64,000 nt of DNA. It comes from Desulfurobacteriaceae bacterium (GTDB taxonomy: Bacteria; Aquificota; Aquificia; Desulfurobacteriales; Desulfurobacteriaceae). Shown in pieces: positions 61,854-63,456 of this stretch. The notes below the pieces were generated by a model that saw nothing but the letters and a program-made list of their open reading frames with translations, was not told the DNA's origin and did not search any database. The position numbers were made by a program, and so were the translations under genes. How positions within the stretch are numbered: position 1 is the stretch's first letter; each line of letters begins with the position of its first letter. The DNA is taken from the NCBI GenBank assembly GCA_027063785.1, contig JAMORC010000024.1:1-64000 (forward strand). Direction: 5' to 3'.

Positions 61854-62060
61854 ATGAAAAAAGGTATTCATCCGGAATACAGGGAAACTAGGGTAATTTG
61901 TGCCTGCGGAAATACTTGGGTTACAAGGTCTACCAAGTTCCCGGAAATCAGGGTTGAAGTTTGCAATGCTTGCCATCCGTTCTTTACCGGAACTCAGAAG
62001 CAGAAAGTAGTCAGGGGTAGGGTAGAGAAATTCCTGGCCAAGTATGAAGGTAAGTATTAA
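61854..62060 (+). CDS. rpmE: 50S ribosomal protein L31
   Basis: 68 residues. It is the zinc-binding (C+) type: CACG near residue 16 and [13 protein letters not shown] further on. AAGGAGG precedes the ATG. The L31 gene lies near rho, as in many bacteria, but divergent with dedA, trpA and tat genes between. Confidence 0.96.
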
Positions 62061-62462
62061 ATGGGCGTGAAGCTCCTCTCGGTGACGGAGAATCTCCTTC
62101 AGACCGTTGCGACAGCAGCACGGGTCTGCTATTCGGGGTTGCCTGTAGAGGAGCTTCTCACCCGTTATTCGGAAGAAGAGCAGGCAGAACTGGTGAAGAG
62201 GGTCGTCGGAATGGGGCACCTTTCCGTGATAGAGCACGGGGTTATGACCCTCTTTGCCGACAGTTCCTTTAAGGAAGAGCTGTTCAGGATAATGGTGGAG
62301 AAGCCGTACCTGAAGATTACGGAAAGAGAGGATGGCTTTATAGTTTCCCTTAACTTAAGGACGGCTTACGAGCTGATGGAGGAGATGTCCCATCTCCGAT
62401 TTGTAGAGGAGCTTCAAAAGGTTTACCCGGCTTTTCTCCCTAAGCCGAAAAATCAACGGTAA
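62061..62462 (+). CDS. Short ThyX-like protein lacking the catalytic segment
   Basis: 133 residues starting immediately after the rpmE stop. The N-terminus resembles flavin-dependent thymidylate synthase (VATAARVCYSG, then VVGMGHLSVIEHGVMTLFAD), and FIVSLNLRTAYELMEEM resembles the later ThyX helix. The intervening RHRxxSxNExSxR segment that binds FAD and dUMP, and the C-terminal third, are missing; normal ThyX is about 210-250 residues. The frame is intact. It may be a degenerate copy or a repurposed small domain. The 3' end overlaps the convergent gene by 23 bp. Confidence 0.6.
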   Translation: MGVKLLSVTENLLQTVATAARVCYSGLPVEELLTRYSEEEQAELVKRVVGMGHLSVIEHGVMTLFADSSFKEELFRIMVEKPYLKITEREDGFIVSLNLRTAYELMEEMSHLRFVEELQKVYPAFLPKPKNQR

Positions 62463-63456
62463 ATCCCTTTTCGCTTCCCTTCAGGAATTTTTCCTTTTCC
62501 TCTTCAAACTCCTTTTTTTCCGAAAATCTAACGACTACCGGGTTAAATCCTTTATCGGCCAAGAACTTCTTTAAGTCTTCCGTGTTTAAGGATTCCTTCA
62601 GTTTCCGGCTTTCTGTAAAAAGTTCAACGGAAAGGTTCTTTCCCAGGAGCTTCACAAGCAGTAGCAACTTTCCCTCGCTGAGTTCTAACTCAACAAGAGC
62701 GGCGGCCATGTCTTCTTCCTTTTTAAAGTATGCTCTGCCCTTTAATTCTCCGTTCAGATAGACGGGAGAGAGAACGATTCCGGTGATTACGAAGAGGGCG
62801 TAGGTGGCAATAAGTTCTTCAACGGCTTTGTTTATTTCGTCCTTCCTCGTCCCGGGAGGCAGTTTATCTCTGACTTTCTGGAAGGTTGATTCTTCGAGGA
62901 GCATAAGCAGAGCCAGTAAGTGGAAGGGTGAAGGGACAGCAGTTTTGGAAGGAAGAAAAGCCGGTAGGTTTTCCTTTAGTTCGGGAAATCTCTTCGTTGC
63001 TATTTTTTGAAGGTATGAAAGTACTTCCTTGTTTAAAAACTTTGATAGTTCGGTTAATTCCGGCTGCTGTTTTGGCAAAAACTCCCTGAGCGTTTCCAGT
63101 AGCTTCCGGGGCTTCTGTTCGGTTTTTACTACGGAAAGTTCTATTTTCGGAGAAGTATTTTCAAGTTTTAAGAGGAGTTCTTCTCCTTCCCGGAACTCTC
63201 TATCAACCTTTACGTCGGCAATTAGTATAAGTTTTCCCGACTTCAGCTTGGCCTTGCCTTCCGGGGTATAGCCGAGGAAAGTTGCTTTTATAAGCAAGGA
63301 CTCTAATTCTTCACTGACGTCCTTTTTTGAGCTTCCCGAAGTGACTGTTGATAATAGCTTTTTCATGTCATAGTAAGAGAAGTTCTCCAGCTTTAGCGGA
63401 AGATCCCTGTTCAGCCCTTCTACCGGGATGATGCCTTCAATCCGTCTTATTTCCAT
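62440..63456 (-). CDS. Hypothetical protein with FliK-like C-terminal domain
   Basis: 338 residues, no signal peptide. The middle (about 130-250) is helical with HLLALLMLLEESTFQKVRDK. The C-terminal about 80 residues (ALVELELSEGKLLLLVKLLG through FLADKGFNPVVVRFSE) resemble the Flg_hook domain of FliK in strand order and spacing. This is a remote match judged by eye. It lies 20 kb from the flagellar block, 9 bp downstream of a cysteine synthase. A second hook-length or type III-like control protein is possible. Confidence 0.5.
   Translation of the reverse strand: MEIRRIEGIIPVEGLNRDLPLKLENFSYYDMKKLLSTVTSGSSKKDVSEELESLLIKATFLGYTPEGKAKLKSGKLILIADVKVDREFREGEELLLKLENTSPKIELSVVKTEQKPRKLLETLREFLPKQQPELTELSKFLNKEVLSYLQKIATKRFPELKENLPAFLPSKTAVPSPFHLLALLMLLEESTFQKVRDKLPPGTRKDEINKAVEELIATYALFVITGIVLSPVYLNGELKGRAYFKKEEDMAAALVELELSEGKLLLLVKLLGKNLSVELFTESRKLKESLNTEDLKKFLADKGFNPVVVRFSEKKEFEEEKEKFLKGSEKGFTVDFSA

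Follow-up and report, generated by a model that had tools for sequence, protein, structure and literature searches.

A predicted two-gene, hetero-oligomeric flavin-dependent thymidylate synthase in Desulfurobacteriaceae

In the Desulfurobacteriaceae, heat-loving bacteria of the phylum Aquificota, two unlike proteins related to the flavin-dependent thymidylate synthase ThyX are very probably the small non-catalytic subunit (here ThyX-N) and the large subunit (ThyX-C) of one obligate hetero-oligomeric enzyme, as predicted from the way the two divide the ThyX active site. ThyX-N lies in the window, the whole stretch of 64,000 nucleotides analyzed here (positions 1 to 64,000 of contig JAMORC010000024.1), while ThyX-C is encoded elsewhere in the genome. 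A sequence-only reading of the window had taken ThyX-N for a ThyX-like protein kept in a new role, as a regulator or a heteromer partner, and not for a decaying gene. Retention and partnership are strongly supported by its presence in 22/22 family genomes, a dN/dS of 0.04 to 0.14, and the existence of another Thy1 gene whose losses complement its own; the regulatory role is without support.

The frame is intact and tightly coupled behind the gene for ribosomal protein L31, as had been proposed (Table 1). The stop codon of rpmE ends at position 62060 and the ATG of ThyX-N begins at the next base, 62061; the same order, with a spacing of −7 to +1 bp, is found in 22/22 Desulfurobacteriaceae genomes. 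Translational coupling of the two genes through the TAAATG junction is possible. By itself, the AAGG/TAAATG pattern is not statistically significant: it occurs once in the window against 0.23 expected by chance, and 22 of 100 shuffled sequences also contain it. The idea that L31 is a frequent neighbor of thyX did not hold, since a regular-expression search, which can miss genes, found L31 beside no other thyX among loci L001 to L107 (mostly 1.5- to 5-kb flanks). On the opposite strand lies a 338-aa frame (62440 to 63456) whose 3′ end shares 23 bp with that of ThyX-N; it had no Pfam match at E 0.001, and frames of similar start or length occupy the same place in three other genomes (G001, G004, and G008).

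Table 1. Positions of ThyX-N, its upstream gene, and the motifs discussed in the text, numbered along the window
Feature	Position	Strand	Evidence
ThyX-N, 133 aa, ATG start	62061..62462	+	Pfam Thy1 above cut-off; orthologues in 22/22; AF2 model; VIA-align Z 14.0
rpmE (ribosomal protein L31, 68 aa)	61854..62060	+	Pfam Ribosomal_L31, E 2.5e-29
Shine-Dalgarno-like AAGG and TAAATG stop/start junction	62047..62063	+	Read in the sequence
GHLSVIEH motif, ThyX-N residues 52-59	62214..62237	+	G52, H53, S55, E58, and H59 invariant in 22/22
NxR motif N98-L99-R100 of ThyX-N	62352..62360	+	NLR invariant in 22/22

ThyX-N matches the Pfam Thy1 family (PF02511) at 38.7 bits against a gathering score of 24.8 (E 1.2e-9), over profile positions 1 to 62 of 191 only, and fails the NCBIfam TIGR02170 ThyX equivalog cut-off (26.3 versus 87.9 bits). 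It retains strand 1, helices 1 and 2, the GHxSxxEH motif, the FTF strand, and the NxR strand-helix; RHR and the dUMP site are missing. The two motifs said to have been kept are both present, as GHLSVIEH and as NLRTA (residues 98 to 102). In profile comparisons with ordinary ThyX, the alignment was limited to residues 1 to 68, which match Thermoplasmata-type ThyX with E 5e-26 and 43% identity, and a comparison with ThyX-C aligned 10 residues (E 0.024). The homology of the ThyX-N tail to ThyX rests on a comparison of predicted folds and on the fused relatives described below. An AF2 model built from 12 family sequences (pLDDT 90, pTM 0.82) places strands at residues 3-8, 61-67, 85-89, and 92-98. 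VIA-align superposes it on the Thermotoga maritima enzyme (4gta) over 121 residues at 2.3 Å and Z 14.0, spanning T. maritima residues 9-216. Among the matches listed, the 47 entries at Z ≥ 9.8 belong without exception to ThyX or PolB, and the one after them drops to Z 4.2. Foldseek was weaker, its best match being a ThyX (2cfa) at E 2.9e-4. Since the VIA-align result extends over the whole model, the most likely reading is that the NLR tail represents the ThyX core strand-helix and that ThyX-N is a shortened ThyX, not a plain N-terminal piece. The earlier view that the C-terminal third is missing was right for most of that region. However, part of the C-terminal core survives as a remnant in the model, so that the main loss comprises the middle, from RHR to the strand before NxR, together with most of the C terminus.

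We searched for ThyX-N in 41 relatives first and then in 136 genomes of the phylum. An orthologue was present in each of the 22 Desulfurobacteriaceae genomes, with lengths of 126 to 134 aa (chosen start) and 51 to 68% identity to the window protein, which bears out the expectation of orthologues of the same length. The short form is the norm across the family, some of whose genomes are assembled in one or a few contigs, and a strain-specific deletion or an assembly error is thereby ruled out. The other matches among the 136 genomes come from nine genomes outside the family and, in one instance, from G011; their frames measure 216 to 344 aa. In an exact-pattern scan of genome contigs, the 11 named records with the ThyX-N type belong to Desulfurobacterium, Thermovibrio, and other Desulfurobacteriaceae. 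Outside the family, the scan, which divergent forms would escape, returned 32 loci (L070 to L101), all ordinary or tandem single frames, with L097 and L101 cut by a contig end. A viral source was rejected, as six pattern matches were found in viruses with no relative among them. One further locus, L028 in G020 (contig C19), has a weak match interrupted by stops.

Across the 22 orthologues, 33 positions are invariant, among them G52, H53, S55, E58, H59, N98, L99, and R100. ThyX-N is under purifying selection, with dN/dS of 0.04 to 0.14 in 11 pairs of 79 to 97% identity (dS above 1 in five). As had been stated for the window protein, the RHRxxS segment is missing, neither RHR nor RHT occurring in any of the 22. 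The position of the dUMP-binding Arg174 is taken by M, K, F, or L in 22/22 and by Arg in none. In genus g6 (G011, G015, and G018), the divergences of ThyX-N and ThyX-C are discordant (dS of 0.26 versus 1.48 for G011/G015 and of 0.96 versus 0.27 for G015/G018), as if one half had been swapped between species.

The review PMC6514825, on the enzymes of Mycobacterium tuberculosis and Helicobacter pylori, describes the FAD of subunit A as held by the RHR of A together with Ser71 and Arg190 of subunit B. In M. tuberculosis numbering, dUMP is bound by A (Arg95 and Arg199) and C (Arg87, Ser105, and Arg107), with Tyr108 of subunit C as a lid over it (same review). ThyX is described as a homotetramer in three sources (PMC6514825, PMC5954106, and PMC7226160). 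Assigned by motif, the serine of GHxSxxEH, S55 in ThyX-N, would correspond to Ser71, and the NxR arginine, R100, to Arg190, with an NxR register taken from a weak match to a T. maritima chain (−1.2 bits). The claim that ThyX-N is without its active site was therefore half right: RHR and the dUMP site are absent, but ThyX-N still has the Ser and Arg by which one subunit contributes to the FAD site of its neighbor in ThyX tetramers.

The remaining share is found in ThyX-C, a protein of about 207 aa (chosen start) encoded in the same genome as the window at locus L001 on contig C5. ThyX-C was recovered from 20 of the 22 family genomes, the two misses being genomes 83% and 62% complete, and is unlinked to ThyX-N; in G001, a genome assembled as one contig, 639 kb separate the two genes. 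In the window's own genome, its Thy1 match begins at profile position 52 and it passes the ThyX equivalog cut-off (139.6 versus 87.9 bits). All 20 ThyX-C proteins retain QLVRHRxASYSQQSQRY and the LR of the Arg174 region. They begin with a segment resembling strand 1 and still have the FTF strand and the C-terminal catalytic helix; helices 1 and 2 are missing. A remnant RH or KH precedes the FTF strand in 20/20, and GHxSxxEH is present in none. A hidden copy of GHxSxxEH in another frame is excluded by a check of all six frames around ThyX-C at 20 loci (40 bases upstream only in G019). At NxR, the asparagine is retained in 19/20, and the motif reads NGE, with Glu for Arg, in 16/20; Lys stands there in two chains and Arg in two. 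These four chains are all from genus g7, so the loss of the NxR arginine contact is not universal.

The losses in ThyX-N and ThyX-C are shown by their motifs to be complementary. As a pair, they hold every FAD and dUMP contact motif of one active site, with Ser and Arg supplied by ThyX-N (22/22) and RHR, S, R, Y, and the Arg174 region by ThyX-C (20/20). A simple cut of an ordinary ThyX into N- and C-terminal halves is rejected on two grounds: a strand-1-like start and the FTF strand occur in both proteins, and the ThyX-N tail folds as the ThyX core strand-helix, not as a new structure.

The sequence-only reading had called for a look at whether a full thyX or thyA exists. No full thyX was found in 18 of the 22 family genomes, each with exactly two Thy1 genes at E ≤ 0.01, ThyX-N and ThyX-C. 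No ThyA was found in 41/41 genomes and no thymidine kinase of family PF00265 in 22/22 family genomes, with one match below cut-off in another family. A ThyA or kinase backup is ruled out on these counts, the latter for PF00265 kinases only, and de novo dTMP synthesis therefore presumably rests on the pair in the 18 genomes. Of the other four, two are the incomplete genomes in which the partner was not found, and two (G005 and G011) carry a third Thy1 gene beside the pair, which might serve alone. In G011, this gene (L118, contig C69) encodes an ordinary ThyX of 216 aa, and in G005 (L117, contig C14) it is a frame of 291 aa; both lie on very long branches and are perhaps acquired genes. A third Thy1 match in the window's own genome (contig C63, E 0.205, 11.1 bits) is under cut-off and was taken as chance.

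A gene with a dCMP-deaminase motif immediately precedes ThyX-C at 11 of 20 loci; the motif is absent at eight, and one more had 40 bases upstream only. For the window's own genome, the Pfam deaminase domain was confirmed. Since this protein is under the NCBIfam ComEB cut-off (116.9 versus 219.45 bits), dCMP is not certain as its substrate. If the neighbor is a dCMP deaminase, it would supply dUMP, the substrate of ThyX.

Because the contact residues are split between the two proteins, ThyX-N looks like a specialized "subunit B" and ThyX-C like A plus C. The two would form an A2B2 tetramer resembling the ThyX homotetramer, in which two ThyX-C chains would build both dUMP sites between them, and each FAD would be gripped by ThyX-C through its RHR and by the adjacent ThyX-N through S55 and R100. 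Judging from the published geometry, such a tetramer would have two working and two vestigial sites instead of four. Together, ThyX-N and ThyX-C would convert dUMP to dTMP in these cells. Among the matches listed in the literature searched, which took in few subscription papers, there was no two-gene or heteromeric ThyX.

Single-chain relatives of the pair occur in other Aquificota families, as bimodular ThyX proteins with both modules in order (frames of 291 to 384 aa). We compared the pair with two kinds of long chain, longA (291 to 384 aa) and longB (310 to 340 aa). Against a profile of 10 longA sequences, residues 17-121 of ThyX-N match the first module, with E 3.8e-8 over 101 columns, and ThyX-C aligns with the second module at E 8.3e-29; matches to seven longB sequences are weaker (E 1.4e-5 for ThyX-N and 2.1e-13 for ThyX-C). 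As judged by eye in the 17 tabulated long chains, a subset of all, the first module retains Ser followed 34 to 58 residues on by N/S-LR, and NxR is gone from its place in the second module, in 17/17. Both kinds thus resemble the pair in having KHxS or HxSP with N/S-LR in the first module and RHR or RHT, with NxR lost, in the second; they differ in that the modules are fused in one chain. LongA (L108 to L116 and L119) reads RHT in 10/10, where ThyX-C has RHR. In three genomes (G024, G027, and G039), all without ThyA, no Thy1 gene other than the longA gene was seen. The tandem ThyX frames L094 (uncultured Clostridia) and L100, of 463 and 488 aa, divide their motifs in a similar but less pronounced way. 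Their first copy keeps GHLSVIEH and has lost RHR, and the second, like ThyX-C, keeps RHR and has lost GHxS; unlike the pair, the copies are fused and nearly full length, and the second retains NAR.

In the phylogeny, longA and longB are separated by a 100/100 branch, longB falling in a different, T. maritima-like clade; this tree comes with long-branch warnings, and its bootstrap had not settled. With the two kinds on opposite sides of that branch, two or more origins are the simplest account of the asymmetry. The family ThyX-C sequences form one clade (100/100) in a tree without the long rows. With the long rows included, they do not (two changes), and 51% of bootstrap trees unite them. We think it probable, if by a modest degree, that ThyX, whose four identical sites are each made up of three chains, has repeatedly been remodeled into an asymmetric A2B2-type assembly in which two sites work and two have been abandoned. 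Duplication with complementary loss would have led to it, most simply in two single-chain cases in the Aquificota (longA and longB) and in a third case, that of the Desulfurobacteriaceae, as a pair of unlinked genes with the small subunit translated behind L31.

Could ThyX-C alone be a sufficient, reduced thymidylate synthase, with ThyX-N an accessory or regulatory protein, such as an activator or FAD chaperone, outside the active site? Its passing the equivalog cut-off, its intact dUMP motifs, and the Arg or Lys at NxR in 4/20 chains would fit, but we consider this unlikely, given that GHxSxxEH is in no frame of the 20 loci, that NxR is NGE in 16/20, that ThyX-N retains precisely the missing FAD contacts, and that other families have equivalent modules fused to the catalytic module. 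Much less credible still is that ThyX-N is a decaying or neofunctionalized paralogue outside thymidylate synthesis, for example a ribosome-linked regulator. The invariable linkage to rpmE (22/22) and the loss of RHR might point that way, yet the low dN/dS, the presence of the FAD-contact residues among the 33 invariant positions, the lack of a full thyX in 18/22, and the lack of thyA and PF00265 thymidine kinase in 22/22 all argue against it.

A further alternative concerns only the origin of the pair, and the weight we give it does not compete with the hetero-oligomer itself. The same heteromer could have come from simple fission of a bimodular, longA-form ThyX instead of from an ordinary ThyX that was duplicated and whose copies lost complementary parts. 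Colinear fused forms in families f3, f4, and f5 are consistent with fission, and a tree constrained to join ThyX-C and the longA second modules in one clade was not rejected (p-AU 0.339). However, the free tree keeps them apart with a log-likelihood better by 3.33, ThyX-N residues 1 to 68 are closer to Thermoplasmata-type ThyX than ThyX-N is to longA (E 5e-26 versus 3.8e-8), and longA has RHT where ThyX-C has RHR. Fission is thus a serious candidate that we nevertheless hold to be the less probable origin.

The predicted hetero-oligomer can be set beside two known systems. With the homotetrameric ThyX (FDTS) of T. maritima (TM0449), M. tuberculosis, and H. pylori, ThyX-N shares its fold and motifs; the FAD site of these enzymes is common to neighboring subunits (PMC6514825), and the same reaction is expected of the pair. 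In those enzymes, one gene gives four identical chains and four sites, whereas here two genes would give two unlike chains. PolB (4p5b, VIA-align Z 11.0) has the same fold as well and is a ThyX paralogue that methylates UMP/dUMP in Streptomyces (PMC5954106). It is a complete enzyme with a changed substrate, whereas ThyX-N is without an RHR of its own.

In annotation, both genes are likely to be labeled "ThyX", or ThyX-N a fragment. ThyX is a drug target. If the hetero-oligomer is real, the halves of its FAD site would sit on separate proteins, so that each subunit's share could be mutated and titrated separately and the role of shared sites in ThyX would become directly testable. The Desulfurobacteriaceae would then also offer a clean bacterial case of complementary loss giving rise to an obligate heteromer, something that apparently happened more than once.
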